From an uncultured Monoglobus sp. (GTDB lineage Bacteria; Bacillota; Clostridia; Monoglobales; Monoglobaceae): DNA of 64,000 bases. Location: NCBI GenBank assembly GCA_947628795.1, contig CANRBF010000006.1, positions 62,001 through 126,000 of the forward strand, written 5' to 3'. Positions 5,901 to 56,676 of this stretch are shown in pieces (positions within the stretch are counted from its first letter, which is position 1; the number at the start of each line of letters is the position of its first letter). The notes beneath the pieces were generated by a model. It did no database searches and was not told where the DNA came from. It saw nothing but the letters and a program-made list of their open reading frames with translations. The position numbers were made by a program, and so were the translations under genes.

Positions 5901-8900
5901 TGTCTTGGTCTCGCCGGGCCGAAGCTCGATCTTTTCAAATCCCTTGAGCTGCTTGGCGGGAGTGGTTCCCTCGCCCGCGTTCGGATGTGACACATAGAGC
6001 TGAACAGCCTCTTTTCCGGCGGCGCTTCCGGTATTGGTAACGTCTACCGAGAACGTCAGCGCGCCGTTTGCGTCCGCGCCCGACGCGGGAGCGGCGGTAT
6101 CAGCCTCGCCTACCGTTTTGGTATAGCTCAAAGGCTTGACCGAATCGGTGTTCTCCCAGATATAAACCTTTGTCTTGCCGCCCTGAGGCTCGGCGATCTC
6201 TATGCTTTGGCTGCCGCTGCCGTCTATTTTAACGCTCTCGCTCTCAACCAAATTTGTCTCTTCCTGATCCGAGTACGCCGCGGCTATGAGCGTCGCCTCG
6301 GGGGCGCCGTCTTTCTTGGTGTATGTGACATTCAGCTTTCCGCCCGAATATTCCGCTCCGGTGATAGTGTATGGGTTTGAGTCCGGGGCAGGCGCGCCGC
6401 CGCTCACCTTCATATTTGAATACTCGAAGTTTGTGTAGCTCAGGCCGTAGCCGAACGGATAGATCGGCGTTCCGCCGTAATACTGATATGTGTGGCCCGG
6501 GTTGGTGCCGTCAGCCTGGATGTTGTAATCGGTATAGCCGCCGGTAATGTCGCCTATCTTTTTGTTTCCGCCGTATAGCTCCATTTTCTTTACGTCGTCG
6601 TTTTTATACCATGTGGTCGTCAGCTTTCCGGAGGGATTGACCTGACCCGTCAAAACCTTGCCCAGCGCGGTGCCCTGGGTCTGGCCGTTGTAAGCCGTCC
6701 ACAGAACAGCCTTGCACTTATCAATAAACGGCTCAACATTGATCTGTCCGACCGTCGACATAACAACGACAGTTTTGTCGGGATACGCGTCGCAAATCGA
6801 CTGAACATGAGCCTGCGACGCGGGCAGGTCGATATTCGCGCGGTCGTGGCTCTCGGAGGAGTCGCCCGTGTTTGTGCCGGCGTAGGCGATGATGACGTCC
6901 GCGGCGTCGAACTCGGCCTTATATCTTTCGGCCGTTATCTCGGGAGTGTTGGCCTCAAAGGTCAGCTCCATCAGCTCGGTGCCGCTGTAGCCGCCGTCGG
7001 CTCCGGTGTACTCGCCCGAGCACTCGGCATACGCGTCAAGGCCCGCGGTATCCTGCGACTTGATATACGCGCCCTCGGGGCCGCCTTCTCCGTAGTGCAC
7101 CGCCACCGTTCCGCCCGGCGCGCTGCCGGTCGAGATCTCCATTGTTATCGTCGCCGCTTTCGCGAAATCGATTTGAGGTATATGCACCTTGGAAACGCGG
7201 GTAATTCCCGTGATCACGCCGTTTGTCACCGAACCGCCGCCGATAACCTCCGCCTTCGAAAGATCGACCTGCGTCCTGCCGCCCTTTTCGTCGACCAGCG
7301 TTATGCTCTTGATATTCATAAGCGCGGTGTCGTTTTCAACAACTCCGACCTGCTGCACCGTCGATCCCGGGTACTGCGCCGCGACCTCCGCGGTGATGCC
7401 GTCTATGGGAGTGACGCTCTTGTCGGGGGTTCCGGAATAATCGCCCAGCGTTACCTCGGCCGCTCTCGGGCCCGCCACAACGATCTTCTTGTCATTTGCG
7501 TCAAGCGGCAGGGCGTTGTCGTCGTTCTTCAAAAGCACCCATGATTCCTCTGCCGCCGCCTCGGCCTTTGCCACGTTCGCGTCGGACTCAAGATCCGCGG
7601 CGTTTGTGTTTCTGTACGAAACGTCGCTATCGAACTCTCCGGTCCTGAATCTCTGGAGGAAAAGCTCATACACCGCTCTCTCGATCTCGTTCTCGGTAAT
7701 ATATCCGTTTTCAACCGCCGCGATGCCGTAGCTCTGGGTCCTGTTGTCATTTGAGGGAGCTGATCTGTCGCCCAGGTTGCACTCGGTGTTAAGACCGTTT
7801 TTGACGGCCTCGGCAATATATCTGTCCATATCGTATGAGGAGTCGCCCAGTATTCCCTGCTTGAACTGGCTGCTGCCCTCAAGGTTCGCGCCGGCTCCGC
7901 AGTCGGTCGTCACATAGCCGTCAAAGCCCCAGTCCTTTCTTAAAAGGTCGTTTAAGAGATAGCCGTTCGCCATCGACGGAATGAAGTTATAGAGAAGCTC
8001 GTTGTTTCTGTATACCGTGGTTCCGTTGTACGACGCCATGACCGACGCGGGCATGACCTGCTCGGTAACGTTCTGGAACACCTTGGCGTAGTAATTTCTC
8101 ATGTTGAACTCGGTCATAACCGAACTGCCGCCGCCTCTGTTGTTCTCGTTGTTGTTGGCCGCGTAATGCTTGAGCGTCGCGATGACCTTTAAATATTTCT
8201 CGTCGTCGCCCTGCATGCCGTCAACAAACTGAGCCGCCAGCTGGCCGGTGAGATACGGGTCCTCGCCCATGGTCTCCTCGTTGCGGCCCCAGCGCGGGTC
8301 GCGCGCCATGTTGATAGTCGGGCTCCAGTATGACAGATCGGTCCTTGAGTTCTTTATTCTCGCCTCGGTTGAGGTAACGTCGCCCATATCAAACGCCAAA
8401 GCTCTGTTCCATGTGTTCGAGAGAGACAAAGGCGAGGGGAAAGAGGTGGCCTTGCCCTGACGGGCGACGCCGTGGAGACCCTCGCGCCAATAATTATAGG
8501 ACGCGACGCCCAGTCTGTCGATCGCGGGAGCCATCATTCCCATCTGATAAACCTTTTCCTCAAGCGTCATGCGCGACACCAGATCGGCCGCCCTCTCCTC
8601 AAACGAAAGGCTCTCGTCCTGATAGGGGAGCACCACGGGTTTGGCGGTGCTGTTATAAAATCTGAAAGTGTGATAGTTTCCGGCGTAACTATTTTTCACC
8701 TTATTTGTCACATTAAACTCGATCGTGACGGGGCCGGAAGCCTCGGTCGTCGTCAGATCGGCGGTGAACAGCTGATAATTCTCCCAGTCGCCGGTGGTGA
8801 CGCCTTCCAAAGACGCCACGGAAACTCCTCCGACCTTGAACGTGACCGTCGTGGTGTTCGTGTTTCCCGCGTAGAACTCGACTTTGTCATAACCCGAGCC

Positions 8901-9164
8901 GTTAAGGTCGATCTCTGGCAAAGTGACCGTGGCTCCGTCTCCCAGCCTGTCTGTAACGGGTGTGCCGTCCGTCACTCCGTTAGCGCCGCTCGTCTTGACC
9001 GAGCCGCCTCCGCTGACAGAGTTCGCGCCGAGCGCCAGCGTGACCGAACCGTCCGCGTTCTTTGTCGCCGTGCCGTAATCCGCCGCGGCAAACGCCGGAA
9101 CGTAAACGCAGCTCAGCGCCATTAAAAATACAAGCGCGAGAGCTAAGATCCTGCCGTGTTTCAT
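2973..9164 (-). CDS. Secreted multidomain GH3 glycosidase with carbohydrate-binding, Ig-like and C-terminal rhodanese domains
   Basis: 2063 residues. Order read from the translation: signal peptide (1-27); CBM6/35-like domain (about 30-172); GH3 barrel (about 185-530) with WREGLHGVAR, the KHYAANNNE stretch and the nucleophile motif TTDCGA (Asp421); GH3 C-domain (about 545-870) with an inserted beta module; a module ending YIWENTDSVKPL (about 925-1020); fibronectin-III-like domain (about 1025-1140); BIG2-like domain (about 1145-1245); helical segment; CBM6-like domain (about 1435-1562); further beta modules; and a rhodanese domain (1971-2063) with the loop CCASGGRA. The WxEGLHG motif favours a beta-xylosidase-like subgroup, but the substrate is not proven. 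Its ATG at 9164 has GGAGG upstream, and it ends at a strong terminator. The rhodanese domain on an exported glycosidase is odd. Confidence 0.9.
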   Translation of the reverse strand: MKHGRILALALVFLMALSCVYVPAFAAADYGTATKNADGSVTLALGANSVSGGGSVKTSGANGVTDGTPVTDRLGDGATVTLPEIDLNGSGYDKVEFYAGNTNTTTVTFKVGGVSVASLEGVTTGDWENYQLFTADLTTTEASGPVTIEFNVTNKVKNSYAGNYHTFRFYNSTAKPVVLPYQDESLSFEERAADLVSRMTLEEKVYQMGMMAPAIDRLGVASYNYWREGLHGVARQGKATSFPSPLSLSNTWNRALAFDMGDVTSTEARIKNSRTDLSYWSPTINMARDPRWGRNEETMGEDPYLTGQLAAQFVDGMQGDDEKYLKVIATLKHYAANNNENNRGGGSSVMTEFNMRNYYAKVFQNVTEQVMPASVMASYNGTTVYRNNELLYNFIPSMANGYLLNDLLRKDWGFDGYVTTDCGAGANLEGSSQFKQGILGDSSYDMDRYIAEAVKNGLNTECNLGDRSAPSNDNRTQSYGIAAVENGYITENEIERAVYELFLQRFRTGEFDSDVSYRNTNAADLESDANVAKAEAAAEESWVLLKNDDNALPLDANDKKIVVAGPRAAEVTLGDYSGTPDKSVTPIDGITAEVAAQYPGSTVQQVGVVENDTALMNIKSITLVDEKGGRTQVDLSKAEVIGGGSVTNGVITGITRVSKVHIPQIDFAKAATITMEISTGSAPGGTVAVHYGEGGPEGAYIKSQDTAGLDAYAECSGEYTGADGGYSGTELMELTFEANTPEITAERYKAEFDAADVIIAYAGTNTGDSSESHDRANIDLPASQAHVQSICDAYPDKTVVVMSTVGQINVEPFIDKCKAVLWTAYNGQTQGTALGKVLTGQVNPSGKLTTTWYKNDDVKKMELYGGNKKIGDITGGYTDYNIQADGTNPGHTYQYYGGTPIYPFGYGLSYTNFEYSNMKVSGGAPAPDSNPYTITGAEYSGGKLNVTYTKKDGAPEATLIAAAYSDQEETNLVESESVKIDGSGSQSIEIAEPQGGKTKVYIWENTDSVKPLSYTKTVGEADTAAPASGADANGALTFSVDVTNTGSAAGKEAVQLYVSHPNAGEGTTPAKQLKGFEKIELRPGETKTVSIELNIRDMYLFDEAAQKDIVPEGTYTAYMASSSADTKNSAQFEVTGTLASTLKTVRANPNGVTVLGRVDENGNGHEAVNSVDSNISIVMSDETVLDPSEADITYVSADSEIAAVDADGTVKSGTKTGVTTITATVTYGGETKTASFPMVNELQIKASDADKTAAIAQLTEIRDSLPKTAYTAESWAEIEKIYTDGVKAVNDAVTKADIDNIIPGVVSGMKNITMDNLSETYTIESVNPQFIVDGVIDYRDGGIPMYENGTGTVNEANPYTGELIAKDASGNTVDASKLTWQIKKVDPSSRKVADIDNDTGALTVYGNGIVQITAADIAAGTCGRLIVKVETQIEAETADDGGKANLKDAQNGASGGFDAGSTANEWMLYKSVNLEYIDSFIARIAGRNAGMIYVSLDKNSKAENLIASVQADATGGWAAWTEVSLDLNPSVIDAAKASGKIDKDGRGDIYIQTNGVNLDYFRINHYVPNDDTPYIVGRVLNKQEGDIKVELTYRGSAAPTDAVLAAEVYGADGALKSTSTSTAVKGGGDYDVNGLKASDGDTVKLYVINNTSENKHLSETAEHVYEEPVPSEIEVITLNKDYTNFDYSQLTSGTNADSTPLDSTVNGVSGFGSWKVVDSTAKYTYKDINETEYSYEFTQAWQAGGGNTTNRNFYFTPKKVPCKVSAIFQGSEAARSMKIWQSEDVNAETPGGTGTAAASLEITEKLPVYVYGGSSNKQLYAIIVEYYGSAKAADAADKQDDEPEDFDRPVQYATWNGKDVTLTRNDRTGESKVWAELPEGMRLQLQTDTFYASDVPYSYGDKYNINALAEYNGRLYAACDGGLVIMFTDCAKCYQLKKAADIDLKYMTIEDGTMIAGDGESEVRIPMSELGGDSIEADEAGVLLAGGAKLIDVRTAEEYAEDHVEGSVNIPIDELKNGLAAYEKDETLIFCCASGGRAAKAVETAKDLGYANVYNLGSYVKLK

Positions 9165-9296
9165 AAAAAATTCCTCCTTTAAATGATTTGCGTAAAATAT
9201 ACTTTTCGTGTTTTATACCCTAATTCTAACACTCTGCGCGAATCAAATAAAGTCATATCAAACACAAAACAAGCCAAAAATTGCTGTGCCCGAAAA

Positions 9297-9321
9297 CAAA
9301 AAAGAGCGCTCAATGCGCTCT
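9297..9321 (-). terminator. Terminator of the 9.4-9.9 kb toxin-antitoxin operon
   Basis: On the minus strand AGAGCGC, loop, GCGCTCT (9303-9309 with 9315-9321) is followed by TTTTTTG. It lies about 85 bases past the toxin stop. Confidence 0.7.
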
Positions 9322-9406
9322 CCTGCCGCACACGCGGCGCAGTTATGCTAAATTAATTATAAATTCGGTTTCTTCCTTTGTCGGGAACTCCGATTTATTA
9401 ATAAAT

Positions 9407-9661
9407 CTATATTTTATTGTATACCTGACCTCTGTTGTCGATATTAACTATACATATCACCTTAATTTCATTATGAACAGAATATAAAACTCTATAATTT
9501 CCGACACGCAAACGATATAAATCATAACCTTTAAGCTTTTTTATATCGCTTCCCGACGGAAGCTTATAAATCGCCTTATACAGCCTTAATCGCTGACTCT
9601 TATCCTGTTTTTCCAAAAATTTCTGAGCGGCACGTTCGAACTTAATTTTGTAGATCGGCAT
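9407..9661 (-). CDS. RelE/ParE-family toxin
   Basis: 84 residues with the fold pattern of RelE-type mRNA interferases: FERAAQKFLEKQD, then a helical hairpin, KLKGYDLYRLRVGNYRVLY and a final strand VNIDNRGQVY. The RLRVGNYRVLY core is the family hallmark. Family members cleave mRNA on the ribosome or (ParE) poison gyrase; which applies here cannot be told from sequence. It overlaps the 3' end of the antitoxin by 20 bases, which couples translation. Two related toxins are at 55227 and 56376. Confidence 0.88.
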   Translation of the reverse strand: MPIYKIKFERAAQKFLEKQDKSQRLRLYKAIYKLPSGSDIKKLKGYDLYRLRVGNYRVLYSVHNEIKVICIVNIDNRGQVYNKI

Positions 9662-9869
9662 AGGTCAGTCCGTCCCTTTCAAGCATTTCTTCAAACGAGA
9701 CGCCAAAACCGTTATTTTCCTCTTTTGCTTTTGCAATCATCAACAAATCCCAACTGTCGGGCTCGGTTTCGCGGCTGTCTTTAATCCCCTGTAAATACGC
9801 GATAATATTTCCGAACTCCTGCTCGGGAATACTGTCAAGCATATTTATGATCCTCTCTTTTTCAGACAT
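9642..9869 (-). CDS. Antitoxin partner of the RelE-type toxin
   Basis: 75 residues, acidic, beginning MSEKERIINMLDSIPEQEF, with a C-terminal part (GVSFEEMLERDGLTYADLQ) like RelB/Phd-type antitoxins that wrap their toxin. First gene of a two-gene operon, transcribed from the promoter at 9892-9920. It resembles the antitoxin at 56158 in its N-terminal helix (INNLPE, IDLINNL pattern). Assignment rests on size, gene order and overlap with a clear RelE toxin. Confidence 0.8.
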   Translation of the reverse strand: MSEKERIINMLDSIPEQEFGNIIAYLQGIKDSRETEPDSWDLLMIAKAKEENNGFGVSFEEMLERDGLTYADLQN

Positions 9870-9891
9870 ATTACCACCTCGCTTTTCTTAT

Positions 9892-9920
9892 ATTTTATCA
9901 CATTCCGCTCCGTAAATCAA
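9892..9920 (-). promoter_or_regulatory. Sigma-A promoter of the toxin-antitoxin operon
   Basis: On the minus strand TTGATT (9915-9920), 17-bp spacer, TAAAAT (9892-9897), 23 bases before the antitoxin start. Confidence 0.6.
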
Positions 9921-9999
9921 GCTTTATTTAAGCGAGGCCGCGATTTACGCCGCGCAAATTTTATCGAAAATCCCCGCGAAAGCCTTCCCATTAAGTAAG

Positions 10000-10538
10000 C
10001 CTCGCCCCTTGGGGAGAGGTGGCAGGCGAAGCCTGACGGAGAGGTGCCAACGTAGTGATTAGCGATTAGTAAATAGTGATTAGGACGGGCAGGCTGCGGC
10101 GGAGCCGCGAAGCGGGTTCGTGGCACTAACGTATTTCGTTTGCACAAATAAAGAGGCCACAAATCATTAAATCATATAGGACATGCGAGATTGCCGCCCC
10201 TACGGGTTTGAAGCAAATCATGCGGATTGGCGATCAAATGCACCAACTACACCTGTAGGGGCGGATATTATCCGCCCGCAACGTAGGTACTAGAAATTAG
10301 TAACCGGGGGCTAGGCATATGACGCGGTAATAAACCAATGATTTTTGCCAAATCATCTCCGCGTAGTTCCTAGGCCCTATTCCCTAGTTCCTACGTTCCC
10401 ACCTCCGTCTTTCCGCCTTTGGCGGAAATCCACCTCCTCCCGGGAGGAGGCATAAAATAGGCGCCCCTAGGGGGGGAGCTGTCGGGCAAAGCCCGACTGA
10501 GGGGGGATCTATTTACTAATCACTAATCACTACGTTGG
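10000..10538. repeat. Nested repeat island with AACGTAG inverted termini
   Basis: This gene-free stretch holds several layered repeats. A 30-bp inverted pair that differs at one base (CCAACGTAGTGATTAG at 10047-10076 and its complement at 10509-10538) encloses a second inverted pair (AACGTAGGTACTAG at 10280 and its complement ending at 10397). Palindromic units of the CCCCAAGGGG family lie at 10000-10046, 10411-10452 and 10451-10508, and a TGTAGGGGCGGATATTA unit at 10252-10278. No transposase is present. The 118-bp inner element matches a 117-bp one at 24750-24866, suggesting non-autonomous elements. Confidence 0.7.
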
Positions 10539-10594
10539 GGCGAGCCTGACCTCACATTCGCGGGTAATTCTGTGTTTTTATTTTTAAATAATAC

Positions 10595-10720
10595 TTGCTA
10601 TTTTACGCAAAGTATGGTATATTAAATATGCCACGTAACTGAATATTTTTTGATACAAGTATGTCATTTTGTTTTTGTTAAAAATGCATACTCTCCGTTA
10701 AAGTTGTAAGTTATGATATG
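10595..10720 (+). ncRNA. Truncated copy of the structured RNA gene (promoter and 5' end)
   Basis: TTGCTA (10595-10600), 17-bp spacer, TATATT (10618-10623) and a presumed start at G10630. The next bases, GCCACGTAACTGAATAT, match the 5' end of the RNA at 23283 (GCCACATATCTGAATAT). A local hairpin follows (AGTATG, CATTTT, loop, AAAATG, CATACT), but the 3' closing strand, the GCAGCA motif and the terminator of the full copies are absent. The sequence runs straight into the open frame at 10718. It may now act only as that gene's promoter. Confidence 0.5.
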
Positions 10721-12352
10721 AACGTAAGCTCGGGCGACACCATAAACGGCGTTGCGGAAAACCTATCCGAAACCGAAAGCACCTACGCGATCGAAGTAAA
10801 CGGAAGCGCGGTCGCGCCGACAGTTGACACAAAAGAGGCGGCTCCGGTCAGCGTTGATTTAAGCTGCGAGGGCAACGGCAGAGCTTTAGGCAGCGGAACC
10901 GTGTACACGGGAGAAAGTGTGAGGATATCCGCAGTTCCGTTTGAAGGCGAAGATTTCCTCGGTTGGTATGAAAACGGAACGCTTGTATCATCGGAAACCG
11001 AATATGATATGCTGGCGTCGCAGGATATTGACCTTAGCGCAAAGTTCACCGAAAATACTTGTGAAATTACCGTGTCTGACGGAAATGACATAATTTCGGC
11101 GTACAGAATAAATAAGGGCGGCACGGTTCCTCTTGAGGAAAATCCGAGAAAAACGAAAGGAATATTCAAAGGCTATTTTGCCGACGAAAATTTCACAAGG
11201 AAGTTTGACAAAAACACCACTTTCAATACAGATTCCACAATATACGCCGAGTTTGAGAGTGCGAAACGATCCGGCGATTGGTTCTACTTTGTAAACAATG
11301 ACGGCAACGCGGTGATCGCGGGCCGCGACAACTGCGGCGAGGTTTTGAGAATTCCGTCCGAGATCGACGGGCATACTGTGACATCAATATATTTCGGGGC
11401 GTTTAATGCCGAATCAGATATCAAATCGGCAGTTCTTCCGAACACGATCAATGTAATTGATGACACGGCCTTTATGAACTGCGAAATGATTAAAACGGTT
11501 TGCTATGACGGATCGAAAGATCAATGGAACTCAATAAACATAGGAGAAAACAACGAAGCTTTAACGAGCGCCAAACTTGTCGCGAATTTTGATTCCGATT
11601 ATGACGCCGATATTTCGCAAATATCCGTTGACAGCGGAACGGTTACAGCAAACTTAGGCTTTACGCTCAGAGACGGAGAAGCGTATTGTGCGCTTTATGA
11701 TTCAAGCGGCGTGCTTGCCGCGGTTAAACAAGCCGACGCCGCAGCTGGAGACGAACAAATAAAGTTTGACATATCCGATGTTGGCAAGGAATTTGAAACC
11801 TTAAAAATATTTATATGGGAAAGCGAAACATTGAAACCGTTGAGTATAGCGAATGTTTTCCCCAACAACGGACACGAGGATCCTCCCGCTCCCACTTTGA
11901 CGCCCGCTCCTACCGAGGCGCCGACGGCACTGCCTCCGAGAGAGACCGAGCAGCCCGGGGATAATTCTCTAAAAATCAGCGTAAGGCTTGACAAAACCGA
12001 GCTCGCGCCCGGAGAGAGCGCGGTGGTTAGCCTCATCGCTGACAGGGATTTTGAAACCGACTTGTTTATGTTTGACTGGACGCTCGACAACGATTTTGAG
12101 TTTTTCGATATTGACGAAAACAGCGATGTTTATTGTTTCCCAAACACATATGACGGGGTCCTTTCGGTGTTTATAGGCAGAACGACAATAAGCGTCAAAG
12201 CGGGAGAACCGTTTTACAGCTTCGGTATCAAGGCCAATGAGAACGCGCGAAAAGGGCGGCACAGCTTACCGCTCGTCGAGAGCACCGTTTGGGACACGGA
12301 TATTAACAACTTTGATACCGCGGTTGACGACATCGTGATCGACGTAAAATAA
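10718..12352 (+). CDS. Surface-type protein with BspA-like, Pro-rich and cohesin-like parts; probably N-terminally truncated
   Basis: 544 residues in the open frame. Visible parts: an InlB-B/MucBP-like beta repeat region (about 45-185, GWYENG and AEFES pattern); a BspA-like leucine-rich segment (about 190-290, IPSEIDGHTVTSIYFGAF); a module ending IFIWESETLKPL (about 297-385) shared with other secreted proteins here; a Pro/Thr linker (PAPTLTPAPTEAP); and a cohesin-like beta sandwich (about 410-544). Such proteins are exported, yet there is no signal peptide and no ribosome-binding site before the first ATG; the frame is open back to 10682 without a better start. I infer loss of the 5' end beside the repeat island, so it may be a pseudogene. 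Confidence 0.55.
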   Translation: MNVSSGDTINGVAENLSETESTYAIEVNGSAVAPTVDTKEAAPVSVDLSCEGNGRALGSGTVYTGESVRISAVPFEGEDFLGWYENGTLVSSETEYDMLASQDIDLSAKFTENTCEITVSDGNDIISAYRINKGGTVPLEENPRKTKGIFKGYFADENFTRKFDKNTTFNTDSTIYAEFESAKRSGDWFYFVNNDGNAVIAGRDNCGEVLRIPSEIDGHTVTSIYFGAFNAESDIKSAVLPNTINVIDDTAFMNCEMIKTVCYDGSKDQWNSINIGENNEALTSAKLVANFDSDYDADISQISVDSGTVTANLGFTLRDGEAYCALYDSSGVLAAVKQADAAAGDEQIKFDISDVGKEFETLKIFIWESETLKPLSIANVFPNNGHEDPPAPTLTPAPTEAPTALPPRETEQPGDNSLKISVRLDKTELAPGESAVVSLIADRDFETDLFMFDWTLDNDFEFFDIDENSDVYCFPNTYDGVLSVFIGRTTISVKAGEPFYSFGIKANENARKGRHSLPLVESTVWDTDINNFDTAVDDIVIDVK

Positions 12353-49965: not shown

Positions 49966-52900
49966 ATGAAATTCAAAAAATTAATTGCGGTGATATGCTC
50001 GGCCGCGGTTTTGTTTAACTGCGCCGTGTTCGCCGCGGAAACGGAACAGGAGGAAGCCGCGGCCGATGACCTCGGGATAGAGCTCGCGGCTGAGACCCAG
50101 ATATTCTCCGGGGGCTCGGGAACCAAGGAAGACCCGTTTTTGATATCGACCGAGGATCAGTTTGATCTGATGAATGATTTCCTCTCATACTCATATAAGC
50201 TGACAAACGATATAGAGCTTACGTCGGACCGAGAGCCGATAGAATTCAACGGAAATGTTTTCAGCGGAACATTTGACGGAGCGGGTCACACGATAAGCGG
50301 ATTGAATATCGATTCCAATAAAAATAATGTCGGCTTTTTCGGCATAAATAAAGGAATAATAAAAAATCTTTGTGTCAGAACAAAACCGGGCGGAAAAGTC
50401 GCTTCCTCTTATTATGGCGGTTATGGCGGAATTATAGCCGGATATAATTACGGAACAATTGAAAATTGCTATGTTTTCGGTGAAGTTTCGGCTTATTATG
50501 CCGGCAGCATTTGCGGCGGAAACAACGGCAGTATCAAAAACTGTTATTCGGTAGTAAATTTTAGCAGCTGTCACTATACAGGCGGTATATGTTATTATGG
50601 AGGTACAGTATCAAACTGCTATTATGACAGAGATGTAAGCGGCTTTTCAAGCGATTCTACAGGCGTAAAATCAAAGGGCACTCTCGCCATGAAAATGAAG
50701 ATCACATACGAGGGCTGGGACTTTGACAACACATGGGGCATTGACTCAAACATAAACGACGGTTATCCCTACCTTCTCGCGGGCGCCGAGAGCAGCTCCG
50801 GAGGCTCGGGTACCCAGATATTCTCCGGGGGCTCGGGAACCAAGGAAGACCCGTTTTTGATATCGACCGAGGATCAGTTTGATCTGATGAATGATTTCCT
50901 CTCATACTCATATAAGCTGACAAACGATATAGAGCTTACGTCGGACCGAGAGCCGATAGAATTCAACGGAAATGTTTTCAGCGGAACATTTGACGGAGCG
51001 GGTCACACGATAAGCGGATTGAATATCGATTCCAATAAAAATAATGTCGGCTTTTTCGGCATAAATAAAGGAATAATAAAAAATCTTTGTGTCAGAACAA
51101 AACCGGGCGGAAAAGTCGCTTCCTCTTATTATGGCGGTTATGGCGGAATTATAGCCGGATATAATTACGGAACAATTGAAAATTGCTATGTTTTCGGTGA
51201 AGTTTCGGCTTATTATGCCGGCAGCATTTGCGGCGGAAACAACGGCAGTATCAAAAACTGTTATTCGGTAGTAAATTTTAGCAGCTGTCACTATACAGGC
51301 GGTATATGTTATTATGGAGGTACAGTATCAAACTGCTATTATGACAGAGATGTAAGCGGCTTTTCAAGCGATTCTACAGGCGTAAAATCAAAGGGCACTC
51401 TCGCCATGAAAATGAAGATCACATACGAGGGCTGGGACTTTGACAGCACATGGGGCATCGACTCGAACATAAACGACGGTTATCCCTACCTTCTCGCGGG
51501 CGCCGAGAACAGACCGGAGAGCATAGTTCTCAATCAAACCGGGCTCACTTTGGCGGTGGGAGAGACCTTCGGACTTAACGCCGCCGTTACTCCCGCGGAT
51601 TACAGCGGAAAGATCTTGTGGAAGTCGAGCAACGGCTCGGTAGCGTCTGTCTCGGACACCGGCACGGTCACGGCAAAAGCTGTGGGCAGCGCCGTTATCA
51701 CCGCCTCGACGGGCGGTCTGAGCGCGAGCTGCAATGTTCAAGTCGCGGACAACGCGGTGCGCGTTACGGGAATGACCCTGAATAAAACAAGTCTGGATCT
51801 CGTTGTCGGCGAAGAGACAACTCTCACCGCGACCATAACCCCGGATAATGCCACAAACAAAACCGTAAACTGGAAAAACCTGAACCCCGAAACGGTAAGC
51901 TTTGACGCAAACACAGGCAGGCTCACCGCCCTGGCCGTGGGACACGCGCGAATAACCGCGGCAACGGCGGACGGAGGTTTTGAAAGCGCCTGCGATATCA
52001 ACGTGTATGACAATTCCGTGAAGGTGACTTCCGTAACACTCGACAAGAGCGAGACCGGCATCGGCATAGGCGAAACAGTGCAGCTGAAAGCGACGGTTTT
52101 GCCGGAAAACGCGACAAACAAAAATATAAAATGGACAACGCTCAATCCCGGCGTGGCGACCGTCTCCGATCAAGGCCTTGTGACGGGTATCGCAGAGGGA
52201 ACCACTCAGATATACGCCACATCGGCGAGCAATTCTCAGTGCTACGCCATATGCCGTATAACCGTGGCAAAGCAAAAAGTTCCGGTAACCGGAATAGAGC
52301 TCGCGAACAACGCGTTCGGAATACCCTTTGAGGTGAATATAGGAAAATCGCTTATACTGTCTCCGACGGTGAAGCCCGCAAACGCCACAAACAAAGACAT
52401 TATCTGGACATCGAGCGATTCCGGTGTGGCCGATGTCAAAAACGGAATGGTGACGGGCATCTCGGAAGGCAGCGTCACGATAACCGCGACGACGGTCGAC
52501 GGCGGATTCAGCGCGAGCTGCGCGGTAAACGTCACAAAGCCGACCGTATATGTCACAGGCATAAGTGTCAACACCGAGCAAATGACGGTCAACATAAAGG
52601 AGCAGAAAAAACTTCAGGCGGCCGTAACACCGGCTGACGCCACCGATAAAACGATAACGTTTAAGTCCAATAATAACGCTATCGCGACCGTAACGACAGA
52701 CGGAACAGTGACCGGGATCTCGCCGGGAACAACGCTTATCCAAGCAATATCCGACACAAACGCGGGTAAATTTATCGCATTCTGCTCCGTCACGGTACCG
52801 AAGCCCGTCGTTGAAGTAACAAACATAAAGCTCAACAAGAGCCGCCTCGAGATCGTTGAAGGCAAAACAGTGCCGCTCAAAGCCGTCATAAAACCCTCCA

Positions 52901-53706
52901 ATGCTACATACAAAAATATCACATGGTCGCAGGGCGACGAGAGCGTGGCGACCGTTGACCAAGAGGGCAACGTGACCGCGCGAGGCGTCGGCGAGACCGC
53001 GGTAAGCGCCACGGCCGCGAACGGTATAACCACGGCATGCAATATAACCGTGCTTCCGTCCGACACGCCGGCGCAGCTCAAAGTTGAGAACGCGACGGTA
53101 AAAGCGGGCAAGCAGGTGCCGATCACCGTTTCGATCGCGTCAAATCCGGGCATATCAACCTTCCAGTTCAATCTCAGCTATGACAAAACGAAGATGTATC
53201 CGGTATCGTACAGCATAGGCGACGCGCTTAAAAACGGCACGGTAACATCGCTGCTCGACGATACATACAAGGACAAGGATTCGGTCGGATTCCTTTGCCA
53301 GACTAAGAATCTGCAAAACACAGACACCGACGGCGAGCTGGTAACGATCATATTCCAAACTCTCAGCAGCGCCGCGTACGGAGACTGCACAATAGGAATA
53401 GAACCGACAGCGTTTACAAATATAAACAACGACAAACTTAACTTTATCGCGAACGACTGCACGCTGAGCATTACGGATTACACCATAGGCGATGTGAATT
53501 GCGACGATGTTATAGATTTGAAGGATTCGCTCGCGCTCGGACGCTCTCTGCTTGGAGAGACGCTCAGCGACACGGGCAGAAAAGCCGCGGTGAGCATTTA
53601 TCCCGACCAAGGCGACGACGTTAACACATCACAGCCGTCCATACAGGATTTCCAGCGCCTTTGCCAATACCTTGCCGACTGGCAGGTAGAGCTTGGCGAA
53701 ATATGA
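49966..53706 (+). CDS. Secreted scaffold-type protein: two GLUG-like regions, six BIG2 domains, cohesin and dockerin
   Basis: 1246 residues. Signal peptide (1-24); two nearly identical GLUG-like beta-helix regions (44-275 and 283-514; GTFDGAGHTISGLNI, GGIIAGYNYGTIENCYVFG); six BIG2-type Ig-like domains (about 517-1030); a cohesin-type beta sandwich (about 1034-1169; GISTFQFNLSYD); and a dockerin-like tail (about 1173-1246). The first dockerin calcium loop, DVNCDDVIDLKD, fits the consensus; the second (DQGDDVNTSQPSIQDF) is irregular. Cohesin and dockerin bind each other in cellulosome-like assemblies, so this protein could bridge proteins on the surface. GAAGGGAG precedes the ATG. No sortase motif or membrane anchor is visible. 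Confidence 0.88.
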   Translation: MKFKKLIAVICSAAVLFNCAVFAAETEQEEAAADDLGIELAAETQIFSGGSGTKEDPFLISTEDQFDLMNDFLSYSYKLTNDIELTSDREPIEFNGNVFSGTFDGAGHTISGLNIDSNKNNVGFFGINKGIIKNLCVRTKPGGKVASSYYGGYGGIIAGYNYGTIENCYVFGEVSAYYAGSICGGNNGSIKNCYSVVNFSSCHYTGGICYYGGTVSNCYYDRDVSGFSSDSTGVKSKGTLAMKMKITYEGWDFDNTWGIDSNINDGYPYLLAGAESSSGGSGTQIFSGGSGTKEDPFLISTEDQFDLMNDFLSYSYKLTNDIELTSDREPIEFNGNVFSGTFDGAGHTISGLNIDSNKNNVGFFGINKGIIKNLCVRTKPGGKVASSYYGGYGGIIAGYNYGTIENCYVFGEVSAYYAGSICGGNNGSIKNCYSVVNFSSCHYTGGICYYGGTVSNCYYDRDVSGFSSDSTGVKSKGTLAMKMKITYEGWDFDSTWGIDSNINDGYPYLLAGAENRPESIVLNQTGLTLAVGETFGLNAAVTPADYSGKILWKSSNGSVASVSDTGTVTAKAVGSAVITASTGGLSASCNVQVADNAVRVTGMTLNKTSLDLVVGEETTLTATITPDNATNKTVNWKNLNPETVSFDANTGRLTALAVGHARITAATADGGFESACDINVYDNSVKVTSVTLDKSETGIGIGETVQLKATVLPENATNKNIKWTTLNPGVATVSDQGLVTGIAEGTTQIYATSASNSQCYAICRITVAKQKVPVTGIELANNAFGIPFEVNIGKSLILSPTVKPANATNKDIIWTSSDSGVADVKNGMVTGISEGSVTITATTVDGGFSASCAVNVTKPTVYVTGISVNTEQMTVNIKEQKKLQAAVTPADATDKTITFKSNNNAIATVTTDGTVTGISPGTTLIQAISDTNAGKFIAFCSVTVPKPVVEVTNIKLNKSRLEIVEGKTVPLKAVIKPSNATYKNITWSQGDESVATVDQEGNVTARGVGETAVSATAANGITTACNITVLPSDTPAQLKVENATVKAGKQVPITVSIASNPGISTFQFNLSYDKTKMYPVSYSIGDALKNGTVTSLLDDTYKDKDSVGFLCQTKNLQNTDTDGELVTIIFQTLSSAAYGDCTIGIEPTAFTNINNDKLNFIANDCTLSITDYTIGDVNCDDVIDLKDSLALGRSLLGETLSDTGRKAAVSIYPDQGDDVNTSQPSIQDFQRLCQYLADWQVELGEI
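50095..51508. repeat. 697-bp tandem duplication inside the scaffold gene
   Basis: 50095-50791 is repeated at 50812-51508, offset 717 bp (239 codons). Only three substitutions were noticed by eye, all near the 3' end (FDNTWG against FDSTWG), with a 20-bp linker between. Near identity at synonymous sites shows a recent duplication or gene conversion. Confidence 0.92.
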
Positions 53707-53721
53707 GCGAGGTGACATAAA

Positions 53722-54573
53722 ATGAAAAAAATAAATAAAACCATATCAAGAATAATAACTACAATAACGGCGCTCGCCATTTTGCTTATGTGCGCGCCGG
53801 CATCCGCGGCAGGCTGCGTGATATCCGTTGACGATACAACAGTGACAGAAGCCGGAACGGTTATCGCGGCGCTTCGAATGGAAAACAACCCCGGCATGGC
53901 CGTCGGCAAGGTGACCCTGAGCTTCGACAAGACCAAGCTTCTGCCCGTGTCGGTTTCGCGCGATAACGGAATTTTGCAGAACAGCTATTCGTTTTTCACT
54001 AATCTGGATGACGAGAACATCGACGCGTCCGAGCTTGACTCGATCACGATAACATGGGTCAACATGACAAATATCCAAGGTGACGGCGTGCTCGCGACCG
54101 TGGAATTTACAACGGTCGGCGAACAAACCGGAGACACGGATATCAAAGTGGCTGTGAACGAGCTGGCAAACGCCTCTCAAGCCGATATAACGGCCGATAC
54201 CAAAAACGGCAAGGTTTCATTCGCCGGGGGCGGAGAAGAGGCTCCGAACAACGGCATTGAGCTCGGCATAGCAAACAGCACGATCACAAAGACCGACACA
54301 AAGCTTGAGGGCTCGATGAAGCTGTCGGTATATTCTCCGGAGGCTATCACGGCGGCGTTTATATTCGCGGTGTACGACAGCTCCGGAAAGCTTACCGCGA
54401 TAAAACTGAAGCAGGACGCCGCGTTAAAATCGGGCATCAACGAGGTCCAGCTCGACGAGATAAGCTCGACCGTGGCTCCGAATACGAATTACGTGGTCAA
54501 AGTGTATATGTGGAACAATATGAACGGTATAGTCCCACTCACCGATGAGACCATAACGCAGCAATACAGCTGA
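53722..54573 (+). CDS. Secreted cohesin-domain protein
   Basis: 283 residues: signal peptide (about 1-29), a cohesin-type domain (about 30-160; VGKVTLSFDKTKLLPVSV, GDGVLATVEFTTVG), and a C-terminal beta module (about 180-280) ending KVYMWNNMNGIVPL, shared with other secreted proteins here. It begins 15 bases after the scaffold gene, with GAGGTGA upstream, so the two form an operon. It could receive the dockerin of its neighbour. No anchor is visible. Confidence 0.82.
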   Translation: MKKINKTISRIITTITALAILLMCAPASAAGCVISVDDTTVTEAGTVIAALRMENNPGMAVGKVTLSFDKTKLLPVSVSRDNGILQNSYSFFTNLDDENIDASELDSITITWVNMTNIQGDGVLATVEFTTVGEQTGDTDIKVAVNELANASQADITADTKNGKVSFAGGGEEAPNNGIELGIANSTITKTDTKLEGSMKLSVYSPEAITAAFIFAVYDSSGKLTAIKLKQDAALKSGINEVQLDEISSTVAPNTNYVVKVYMWNNMNGIVPLTDETITQQYS

Positions 54574-54583
54574 CGCGCAAACA

Positions 54584-54620
54584 ACCACCCTGCGGCTATG
54601 CCGCGGGGTGGTTTATTATT
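54584..54620 (+). terminator. Terminator of the cohesin operon
   Basis: ACCACCCTGCGG (54584-54595) pairs with CCGCGGGGTGGT (54601-54612), one mismatch, then TTATTATTT. Confidence 0.8.
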
Positions 54621-54705
54621 TGCTGAGCTTATACAGAGCGTATTGATTGAGGGAAACGCCTTCTCTCTCCGCGGCCGCGACAAGGGAGCGATGAAAAAAT
54701 TTCAG
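54616..54705 (-). pseudogene. HicB-type ribbon-helix-helix remnant (copy 1)
   Basis: The frame reads FFHRSLVAAAEREGVSLNQ then YALYKLSK and a stop, the C-terminal end of HicB-family antitoxins, with an in-frame stop just before it. It is near identical to the end of the fragment at 55705. Only about 27 residues remain. Confidence 0.7.
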
Positions 54706-54709
54706 TCAT

Positions 54710-54916
54710 TTAAACCTCCATTTTTCGCGGACAATTATATGTCATACACGTTTTACAATACTTCTTATAATCCTCGGAAATGCAGCATAAATAATAATCA
54801 CACTCGTTACAACATGCGTAAGGATGCGTTATCTCATTATAATTGTTATCATTGCCGGGACAATCTTTTCCAAAATTACCCGGGATCAATTCAACGCCTG
54901 TTACATCAAATATCAT
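54710..54916 (-). CDS. Small Cys-rich protein downstream of structured RNA copy B
   Basis: 68 residues with ten Cys, several in pairs (KDCPGN, ACCNECDYYLCC, YCKTCMTYNC), suggesting a metal-bound mini-fold. It begins MIFDVTGVELIPGN; I recall similar short proteins from gut Firmicutes but no function. GAGGTTGAT is well placed before the ATG at 54916. The terminator of the structured RNA ends 20 bases upstream, so readthrough of that RNA would transcribe it. The HicB-type remnant follows directly. Confidence 0.62.
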   Translation of the reverse strand: MIFDVTGVELIPGNFGKDCPGNDNNYNEITHPYACCNECDYYLCCISEDYKKYCKTCMTYNCPRKMEV

Positions 54917-54933
54917 TTTATCAACCTCATAAT

Positions 54934-55101
54934 GAAAAATGCGCAGCCGGAGCCGCGCAAAAAAATGCACAAACTCCAATTGCTGCAACACAATTTCACA
55001 ACAATGTCAAGAACAGACAACGCGTAAACAGAGCGTGCATTTTTATCAATGATAAAAATGGCACACGTTATCTGTTCTGTTAAACTGTGAAATTATGTTG
55101 C
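54934..55101 (-). ncRNA. Structured small RNA, copy B
   Basis: On the minus strand the RNA begins GCAACATAATTTCACA (55101-55086), which pairs with TGTGAAATTGTGTTGC (55000-54985), 16 pairs with one G-U. After a 7/9-base bubble comes a 13-pair helix (AGAACAGATAACG with CGTTGTCTGTTCT) and an apical hairpin (CATTTTTATC, ATT, GATAAAAATG). The closing helix is followed by AGCAATTGGAG and a terminator (GCGCGGC, TCCG, GCTGCGC, ATTTTTC). Promoter spacing, start base, closing helix and the GCAGCA-TTG-AG motif match copy A at 23283 though the middles differ. Confidence 0.75.
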
Positions 55102-55107
55102 AAGATT

Positions 55108-55136
55108 ATTTTAGCATAACACTGTTAAAAATGCAA
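55108..55136 (-). promoter_or_regulatory. Promoter of structured RNA copy B
   Basis: On the minus strand TTGCAT (55131-55136), 17-bp spacer, TAAAAT (55108-55113). The seventh base after it is the G that opens the closing helix. Confidence 0.78.
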
Positions 55137-55164
55137 TATTTATATTTTATAAACCGAAAAAGAG

Positions 55165-55193
55165 TTGTAAATTTGAATATATTGTGATATAAT
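55165..55193 (+). promoter_or_regulatory. Promoter of the first RelE-type pair
   Basis: TTGTAA (55165-55170), 17-bp spacer, TATAAT (55188-55193), divergent from the structured RNA promoter. Confidence 0.75.
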
Positions 55194-55226
55194 TAAAGCA
55201 GTTAAATTTATAGATTGGGTATTGTT

Positions 55227-55475
55227 ATGAAAAATATAAGGTATTCAAAGCAAGCAATAAAGACTATTAACGCTATGGATCGACCAACAAAGCTAAGGAT
55301 TAAAACCGCCGTCGAAAAATTACCTGACGGTGACGTTAAACCTTTGAAGGGTACGAAAGACAGTTTTCGGGTTCGCGTTGGAAACTGGCGTATATTATTC
55401 TCGTACATGTCGCAAGACGAAGTGTTAATTGAAAAGATTGCGCCGCGCGGAGAAGTTTATAAGGGGGTACAATAA
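55227..55475 (+). CDS. RelE/ParE-family toxin
   Basis: 82 residues: IRYSKQAIKTINAMDRPTK, then KPLKGTKDSFRVRVGNWRIL and VLIEKIAPRGEVYKG, the RelE fold pattern. The ATG at 55227 is used; a TTG 12 bases upstream is possible. Here the toxin precedes its antitoxin, the reverse of the pairs at 9.4 and 56.2 kb. Confidence 0.88.
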   Translation: MKNIRYSKQAIKTINAMDRPTKLRIKTAVEKLPDGDVKPLKGTKDSFRVRVGNWRILFSYMSQDEVLIEKIAPRGEVYKGVQ

Positions 55476-55476
55476 T

Positions 55477-55674
55477 ATGTCACCAATCAAAAATCAACTC
55501 TTGGAAATAATAGATTATATGCCTATGCGCGAGCAGATTTTACTTCTTGAAATAGCTCAGCGATTTGTTCCCGATGATATTGCAACGCCCGACGATCTGG
55601 CAGCTATAAAGGCGGCGCGATCCGAATACCAAAACGGTGAGACAATATCGCACGAAGACATTAATTGGGATTAA
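55477..55674 (+). CDS. Antitoxin partner of the 55.2 kb toxin
   Basis: 65 residues, acidic: a helical N-terminus (LEIIDYMPMREQILLLEIAQ) and a tail with VPDDIATPDDLAAI and GETISHEDINWD. Such short proteins are found beside RelE toxins. It starts 1 base after the toxin stop with AAGGGGG upstream. Confidence 0.78.
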   Translation: MSPIKNQLLEIIDYMPMREQILLLEIAQRFVPDDIATPDDLAAIKAARSEYQNGETISHEDINWD

Positions 55675-55677
55675 ACA

Positions 55678-55706
55678 AATCCCCGCGAGGCCGCGGGGAT
55701 TTTGTT
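55678..55706. terminator. Bidirectional terminator
   Basis: AATCCCCGCG, AGGC loop, CGCGGGGATT (55678-55701) with T-rich runs on both sides; it serves the plus-strand pair and the minus-strand remnant. Confidence 0.85.
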
Positions 55707-55860
55707 ATTTGCTGAGCTTATACAGCGCGTATTGATTGAGCGAAACGCCTTCTCTCTCCGCCGCCGCGGCAAGGGAGCGATGAAGCGATTTCGGGACTCT
55801 GACAACAAATTTGCCGCTGTACCGGTCAGCGCTGTTCGGCAGCGGCACATCAAACCTCAT
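55705..55860 (-). pseudogene. HicB-type ribbon-helix-helix fragment (copy 2)
   Basis: 51 codons: MRFDVPLPNSADRYSGKFVV, RVPKSLHRSLAAAAEREG and VSLNQYALYKLSK. This is the C-terminal DNA-binding part of a HicB antitoxin; the N-terminal toxin-binding domain is missing. Its ATG falls right at the end of the copy C terminator with no ribosome site, so it looks like a deletion product. A short working regulator cannot be excluded. Confidence 0.65.
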
Positions 55861-55863
55861 AAT

Positions 55864-56031
55864 GAAAAATGCGTAGCCGGAGCCGCGCAAAAAAATGCAC
55901 AAACTCCAATTGCTGCAACACAATTTCACAACAATGTCAAGAACAGACAACGCGTAAACAGAGCGTGCATTTTTATCAATGATAAAAATGGCACACGTTA
56001 TCTGTTCTGTTAAACTGTGAAATTATGTTGC
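55864..56031 (-). ncRNA. Structured small RNA, copy C
   Basis: Nearly identical to copy B: start G56031, closing helix 56016-56031 with 55915-55930, terminator 55871-55888. One change in the terminator stem (GCGCAGC to GCGTAGC on the plus strand) turns a pair into a different one and keeps the hairpin largely intact. Confidence 0.75.
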
Positions 56032-56037
56032 AAGATT

Positions 56038-56066
56038 ATTTTAGCATAACACCGACAAAAATTCAA
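56038..56066 (-). promoter_or_regulatory. Promoter of structured RNA copy C
   Basis: On the minus strand TTGAAT (56061-56066), 17-bp spacer, TAAAAT (56038-56043). The spacer differs from copy B at several bases while both boxes are kept. Confidence 0.75.
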
Positions 56067-56094
56067 TATTTATATTTTATAAACCGAAAAAGAG

Positions 56095-56123
56095 TTGTAA
56101 ATTTGAATACATTGTGATATAAT
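56095..56123 (+). promoter_or_regulatory. Promoter of the second RelE-type pair
   Basis: TTGTAA (56095-56100), 17-bp spacer, TATAAT (56118-56123), the second copy of the plus-strand promoter. Confidence 0.75.
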
Positions 56124-56157
56124 TAAATTAACATCGGATTATTGAAAGGGTGATAGT

Positions 56158-56379
56158 ATGTCAAACAGAGAGATAGCGATTGATTTGATAAATAATCTTC
56201 CCGAGTATAAACTGGCATATATTATAACATTTCTTAAAGGCGTTACCTATGATGATGATATTGAGGATGACATTTATTGCCGCAAATTGGTTGATGAATA
56301 TTTAAACGACAAAAGTCCCGACAAGCACGAGACAGTTTCGATTGAAGATTTGGCAAACGAATTGGACATCGCCTTATGA
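56158..56379 (+). CDS. Antitoxin of a RelE-type pair
   Basis: 73 residues, strongly acidic: REIAIDLINNLPEYKLAYII, then ETVSIEDLANELDIAL. GAAAGGGTG precedes the ATG. Its stop overlaps the toxin start by 4 bases (ATGA), which couples translation. Gene order matches the pair at 9.4-9.9 kb. Confidence 0.8.
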   Translation: MSNREIAIDLINNLPEYKLAYIITFLKGVTYDDDIEDDIYCRKLVDEYLNDKSPDKHETVSIEDLANELDIAL

Positions 56380-56630
56380 AATATCATGTTGTAATTGAGA
56401 AAAAACCTTTGAAATTCATAATGAAACAGCCGCGTAATCAACAAGAACGGTTGCTCAGGGCAATTTACAAGCTTCCGGATAACGGAGACATTGCCGCGAT
56501 AACTGACAGAGAAGGTTTTTTCAGACTGCGTGTTGGAGATTATCGTATTATATTCACTGTTGATAACGGCAAATATATTGTTTGTGTTGTCGACGCGGGA
56601 AACCGCGGTCAAATTTATAAAAAGTATTAA
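56376..56630 (+). CDS. RelE-family toxin
   Basis: 84 residues with the RelE core FFRLRVGDYRIIF and end strand VVDAGNRGQIYKKY. It is closer to the toxin at 9407 (LRVGNYRVLY, IDNRGQVY) than to that at 55227. Expected activity is ribosome-dependent mRNA cleavage. Confidence 0.9.
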   Translation: MKYHVVIEKKPLKFIMKQPRNQQERLLRAIYKLPDNGDIAAITDREGFFRLRVGDYRIIFTVDNGKYIVCVVDAGNRGQIYKKY

Positions 56631-56676
56631 AAAACAACCCCGCGGCATATCAAGCCGCGGGGATCTTGTTTTTTGA
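56631..56676. terminator. Bidirectional terminator, RelE pair and ribosomal operon
   Basis: CCCCGCGGC (56638-56646) pairs with GCCGCGGGG (56654-56662); TTGTTTTTTG follows on the plus strand and TTGTTTTTT on the minus. Confidence 0.9.

Follow-up and report, generated by a model that had tools for sequence, protein, structure and literature searches.

The stretch between positions 50095 and 51508 of the window (the whole stretch of 64,000 nucleotides that we analysed) is likely to hold one GLUG-type domain that has really been duplicated, in tandem and in frame, at the N-terminal end of a cohesin-bearing and apparently secreted protein. The duplication is best read as young but not datable. Note that neither the three differences between the copies nor the number of exactly two copies can be trusted from the assembly.

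The duplicated domain and its protein

The copies belong to the first of two genes that form a cassette, with the following features:

49966..53706, + strand: ORF of 1246 aa that comprises, after a start resembling a signal peptide (by eye), two units of GLUG type, six Big_2 domains, one cohesin domain and a weak dockerin-like C-terminus
50095..50791, + strand: copy 1 of the duplicated unit, 697 bases, GLUG above the Pfam cut-off when scanned alone
50729..50748, + strand: span of 20 bases with all three mismatches (partners in copy 2: 51446, 51459 and 51465)
50792..50811, + strand: linker between the copies, 20 bases, in frame, Ser/Gly-rich
50812..51508, + strand: copy 2 of the duplicated unit, 697 bases
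51509..53067, + strand: six Big_2 (bacterial Ig-like) domains from Pfam, with approximate limits, placed between the units and the cohesin domain
53074..53400, + strand: cohesin domain (PF00963), residues 1037-1145, 44.6 bits against a gathering cut-off of 24.1
53488..53586, + strand: first repeat of the dockerin-like C-terminal piece (Dockerin type I, PF00404), sub-threshold with 16.6 bits against a gathering cut-off of 22.9
53722..54573, + strand: second cassette gene, 283 aa with a cohesin domain, 26.2 bits against 24.1

The two copies are identical in 694 of 697 bases, and the initial 634 bases are unbroken. The spacing from copy to copy is 717 bases, that is, 239 codons (0 mod 3), and the register is kept. 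The first-pass annotation had described a very recent in-frame duplication of a beta-helix region in which the copies differ at about three bases. Its coordinates and its count of differences were right, and the in-frame tandem duplication is supported by the 717-base register, the ORF and the GLUG matches. The mismatch at 50729 (A in copy 1, G in copy 2) turns AAC into AGC and thus Asn into Ser; those at 50742 (T/C) and 50748 (A/G) are both silent. All three fall inside the last 63 bases of the unit, i.e. at most 63 bases from the unique 3' flank, which has a probability of p = 0.00067 under random placement (p = 0.0022 for a mismatch span of at most 19 bases).

The pair of 697-base units is the longest exact direct repeat within the window, the runner-up having 178 bases. 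In its own genome the unit has five matches, namely both copies and three stretches of 42-83 bases with 73-81% identity, and a unit of high identity is found only at 50095-51508. The linker codes for SGGSGT, which, apart from silent changes in the DNA, repeats the motif at which the unit starts; read as SSSGGSGT, it resembles, by eye, the start of a second, older unit. Each unit has about 232 residues, and the first repeat starts at residue 44, shortly after the signal-like start. That the protein is secreted, as had been claimed, agrees with this start, although the signal was seen by eye only.

The base composition of the unit is uneven. Third-position GC is 0.325 in its middle (50320-50670), as opposed to 0.56 and 0.70 at its two ends; the value is 0.65-0.67 in the start of the ORF, the upstream GH26-like gene and the cohesin gene. 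The dip hints at a mosaic origin of the unit.

In a lone unit the GLUG motif (PF07581) scores 22.5 bits against the gathering cut-off of 20.5, and in the N-terminal region with both units it scores 33.4 bits. When the whole ORF is scanned with Pfam, the score is 12.3 bits and below the cut-off. The same scan revealed no protease or enzyme domain in the ORF, and NCBIfam gave no named match above cut-off. Neither Rfam at its gathering thresholds nor ARAGORN had any match in the 64-kb window. Dockerin matches over cut-off number three in the genome, all of them outside the cassette, and of its eight cohesin matches two are within it, so that partners may exist.

A profile of 19 units from the genus and its relatives matches the PDB entry 3n6z, a putative IgA1 protease, with E 1.7e-28. 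The window unit alone has no match in PDB at E <= 1, and single-sequence AlphaFold2 of both units yielded a mean pLDDT of 41.2, which is too low for a fold search. In a GLUG array of a congener there is a sub-threshold match to Peptidase_M26_N (24.5 vs 27.7 bits). The N-terminal domain of the pneumococcal IgA1 protease is described as a beta-helix (PMC7695701), in passages of that paper that do not mention GLUG. The link from GLUG to this beta-helix runs through Pfam names. The beta-helix of the first-pass annotation is a candidate fold, backed indirectly by the GLUG motifs, the 19-unit profile and these passages.

Relatives and genomic site

Eight congener loci were fetched around the GH26-like gene, of which L091-L096 cross the site and L097 and L098 are uninformative. 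None of the six crossing loci matches positions 49966-54573 in blastn (E <= 1e-5), and in five of them the GH26-like gene is directly followed by sequence that matches the window from 54587 or later. As the cassette has no DNA match at the site in any of the six, it would represent either an insertion here or a loss elsewhere. The cassette site in L094 (G009) is taken up by another sequence of about 3.8 kb (8302-12134), which contains frames of 406, 275 and 518 codons. As different sequences are found at this position, it is possibly a hot spot.

The protein sequence after the units is matched to some extent in 11 of the 12 genus genomes, the own genome included. In the best match from another genome, 432 of 733 residues are covered with 36% identity, and shorter stretches reach 45%. 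No orthologue of the 1246-aa ORF was called in the 11 congeners, each species being represented by one genome, and no full-length relative was found. By DNA, the unit is matched in 9 of 60 genomes including its own, with at most 112 bases outside the own genome among the matches listed; by protein, a relative is present in 38 of the 60, again including its own. Protein scans of genome contigs and viral contigs with the whole ORF found no relative (records of the own genome were possibly excluded), and when viral contigs were scanned with a sister unit, one weak locus came up. An alignment of 19 units contained no stretch of sufficient conservation to serve as a query.

A protein of similar architecture is L116 in the congener G002, with 1159 aa that comprise GLUG, three Big_2 domains, cohesin and dockerin. 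Since it shows one stretch that matches the unit (among matches of at least 120 residues), the likely direction of change, as far as the sequences indicate, is from one unit to two. A one-copy orthologue at the same site, which would prove this direction, was not found among the congeners.

The region between the cassette and the ribosomal region (54574-56640) has a low GC of 0.387, and parts of it are more than 90% identical in congeners. It contains a small ORF that by eye looks like a RelE toxin (55215-55475, no NCBIfam match) and another with a sub-threshold RelE_StbE match (56376-56630), with small neighbour ORFs beside them. An exact repeat of 178 bases, at 54945 and 55875, overlaps a stretch that partly matches its own reverse complement. 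The pieces 54612-54703 and 55701-55792 are 91% identical to each other, and the ORF at 55705-55950 (minus strand) resembles the end of a small DNA-binding antitoxin (YlcI/YnfO, sub-threshold with 20.3 vs 30 bits); these pieces and this ORF are probably remnants. Judged by its sequence, the region seems to be one in which toxin-antitoxin systems turn over.

Sister proteins of the genus

From the own genome and its relatives we took 19 loci that carry array ORFs and compared each with itself. The sister arrays have several GLUG units per ORF, and their in-frame repeats of such units have shifts of 852, 846, 870 and 1335 bases with 79-95% identity, that is, they are of several ages. In eight ORFs, including that of the window, all 19 listed pairs (at least 300 bases, up to five per ORF) are shifted by multiples of three. 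As the sister proteins of the genus show both in-frame repeats of units and conversion, an in-frame duplication is an ordinary growth step in a known kind of repetitive protein.

Several pairs contain identical runs much longer than expected from random placement, namely 640 bases in a 92.8% pair and 152 in a 79.3% pair of G002, 289 in a 93.9% pair of G010 and 223 in a 95.3% pair of G004, but the congener contigs are MAGs where identified, several with NODE-style names, and such runs may be assembly-inflated. No clear excess is seen in other pairs, such as one of 72.9% in G010 (p = 0.61) and one of 88.9% in G000 (p = 0.062). We dropped the long identical runs as proof of conversion. Because the congener arrays come from draft assemblies, the claim of conversion rests on a comparison across species.

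For this comparison we used two GLUG units, a and b, of an orthologous giant protein. Units a and b are 76.4% identical in G000, 74.4% in G010 and 75.1% in G009, and 91.6% in G002 and 88.8% in G004. Unit a of G002 has 88.3% identity to unit b of G000 and of G010, and 76.8% and 76.2% to their unit a; for unit a of G004 the values are 87.3% and 87.6% to unit b and 77.1% and 76.7% to unit a. A FastTree phylogeny joins unit a of G002 to unit a of G004 (support 0.90) and separates both from the remaining a units (0.99); unit b of G009 is an outlier, away from the other b units. As the a units of G002 and G004 are nearer to the b units of the others and are set apart from the other a units in the tree, unit a is best read as having been converted by unit b in the G002/G004 line.

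Copy numbers differ between species as well. A segment of 1341 bases occurs twice in G010 (L107, ORF bases 6864-9545), in frame and in tandem, with the two occurrences 93.9% alike. It aligns once in the orthologues of G000 and G002, and the contig of G004 ends inside it. The segment has no GLUG match of at least 120 residues, and from the alignments it appears to be a species-level copy-number difference.

Some observations speak against the reading as a tandem duplication or against its generality. In G008, the one single-contig congener, a GLUG array ORF of 1073 aa, two GLUG regions of which were examined, has no DNA self-repeat of at least 100 bases at E <= 1e-10. Moreover, the closest repeats come from multi-contig assemblies, where identical runs are possibly assembly-inflated. 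G008 also contains a tandem duplication of a whole gene (L255, 5230-9915), with a spacing of 2273 bases, 91% identity and two ORFs of 684 codons, whose ends resemble the copper-amine-oxidase-N domain.

What the assembly allows

When we compared the contig termini (n = 50, both termini of one contig being N and dropped), we found exact overlaps of 77 bases in five pairs, of 76 in one, and of 59, 56 and 47 in three. The 16S gene is matched over 9-873 of 1533, with a weak piece at 875-902, and runs into a contig end. Because of the exact 77-base overlaps and the 16S gene cut at a contig end, the assembly is probably a short-read graph of the k = 77 de Bruijn type; the assembler itself we infer. 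In G000 several contigs stop, by eye, inside short repeats that resemble coding repeats, and its large repetitive genes are thus possibly fragmented.

A graph of this type retains the differences that are linked to the unique flank through gaps of less than k, and isolated interior ones become bubbles that can be merged. An exact repeat of 634 bases is longer than the usual short-read insert sizes. The assembler could therefore have merged interior differences, compressed more than two copies, or both. We simulated the graph with all interior bubbles merged. For k = 77 the observed pattern is likeliest with about 8 true differences (P 0.043), as compared with P 0.0077 for 3, 0.013 for 16 and 0.0054 for 20; for k = 55 the best number is about 12. 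As this simulation admits more than three differences, a true divergence of the copies from about 0.4% to nearly 3% would be compatible with the assembly under the model. A short-read graph assembly can under-count, and since the contig ends show the 77-base overlaps, we rejected the three mismatches as a clock for the age of the duplication.

Given that the linker is unique and in frame, the tandem join between the copies is probably real, and it should exist in at least some cells, because the unique linker must have been read beside the ends of the units and no other locus carries the unit at high identity. It is highly improbable that the second copy is a pure assembly artefact: while the assembly is probably of short reads and the repeat is far longer than k, a unique in-frame linker and terminal mismatches should be impossible to obtain from a single-copy locus. 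We rejected this explanation on account of the linker. As no assembler would make up a unique linker that is in frame, a single copy in long reads, which the first-pass annotation had set as the refutation of its claim, is unlikely; a likelier surprise would be more than two copies or more differences.

There is little short of an even chance that the duplication is real and that its near-identity is partly made by the assembler, with the copies threaded through one merged graph edge and the interior differences averaged away. The five exact 77-base overlaps and the cut 16S gene fit this, as do the position of all mismatches within 63 bases of the unique 3' flank and the optimum of the simulation at about 8 (k = 77) or 12 (k = 55) true differences. 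Furthermore, metaSPAdes is described, in the part of the literature used here, as merging bulges and so collapsing most strain differences (PMC8021871). However, the simulation assumes that all interior bubbles were merged, with the assembler and its settings inferred, and compared with three true differences its optimum is favoured only about six-fold. A conversion tract that ends near 50728 would also produce an equal clustering.

Such a tract is the core of another explanation, according to which an older duplication was recently overwritten by gene conversion. It would account for the absence of differences in 634 bases as compared with three in the last 63, and for the linker that looks, by eye, like the start of an older unit; moreover, conversion is seen in a sister protein. 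We regard it as unlikely, given that merging in the assembly predicts the same pattern and that identity is still 95% in the last 63 bases, so that the older unit would itself be young. Still somewhat less likely is an array with a third or further copies that the assembler reduced to two passes through a loop. The exact repeat exceeds both k = 77 and the usual short-read inserts, such that the copy number would rest on coverage, and sister arrays do have several units per ORF, but there is no positive sign of a third copy. We keep the reading as a real tandem duplication. As for the claim of recent duplication or ongoing conversion, the repeats and the conversion in the sister GLUG arrays speak for it in general, whereas the words 'very recent' rest on three differences that may be under-counted.

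Possible origin and significance

The duplication could have arisen by ordinary slippage or unequal recombination, and recombination between the units may keep the copies similar. The linker motif SGGSGT may be what is left of an older second unit, or it may result from a jump of the copying machinery. Going by the domain names, the GLUG units would form the outer end and the Big_2 domains the stalk, with the cohesin domain docking a partner, so that the protein could be a surface binder and a doubled unit would mean a doubled binding face. We tentatively consider, while holding it for rather doubtful, that the Monoglobus-like GLUG proteins form a variable repertoire driven by conversion and duplication, in which the outermost domain, and not the stalk, is copied and overwritten. 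If this were true, strains would differ in the number and in the sequence of their tips.

In itself, the duplication of a domain in a repetitive bacterial protein is a routine case. It also calls for caution: in a draft genome, the assembly allows neither dating nor counting of near-perfect tandem repeats that exceed the read length. Unit-to-unit conversion across species makes the GLUG family a fair place to study the shuffling of surface repeats in gut bacteria.

Comparison with known systems

Scaffold proteins with cohesin and dockerin domains are known from fibre-degrading Clostridia. The window protein is like them in its cohesin domain above cut-off, the adjoining cohesin gene and the dockerin matches elsewhere in the genome; it differs in having a single cohesin domain, a sub-threshold dockerin-like end and no Pfam enzyme domain. 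Among the GLUG-motif proteins (PF07581), which include 3n6z, likeness is seen in the GLUG of the lone unit and in the match of the 19-unit profile. On the other hand, 3n6z is a putative IgA1 protease, whereas the window ORF has no Pfam protease domain.

A close parallel in the organisation of the repeats is given by the Periscope Proteins SasG, Rib and Sgo_0707. In the passages used here, these are described as having tandem repeats of more than 50 residues with at least 80% identity, the high DNA identity of which is expected to allow changes of copy number, and which form a stalk below an N-terminal ligand-binding domain (PMC8201768). With units of 232 residues and 694 of 697 identical bases as assembled, the window protein is alike in repeat size and identity. 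A further trait of Periscope Proteins, a repeat number that varies among strains, would be a prediction for the window protein, in line with the first-pass annotation. It differs in having only two copies as assembled, and its repeats do not form a stalk: they begin at residue 44, after the signal-like start, and the repeated domain is the N-terminal end itself.
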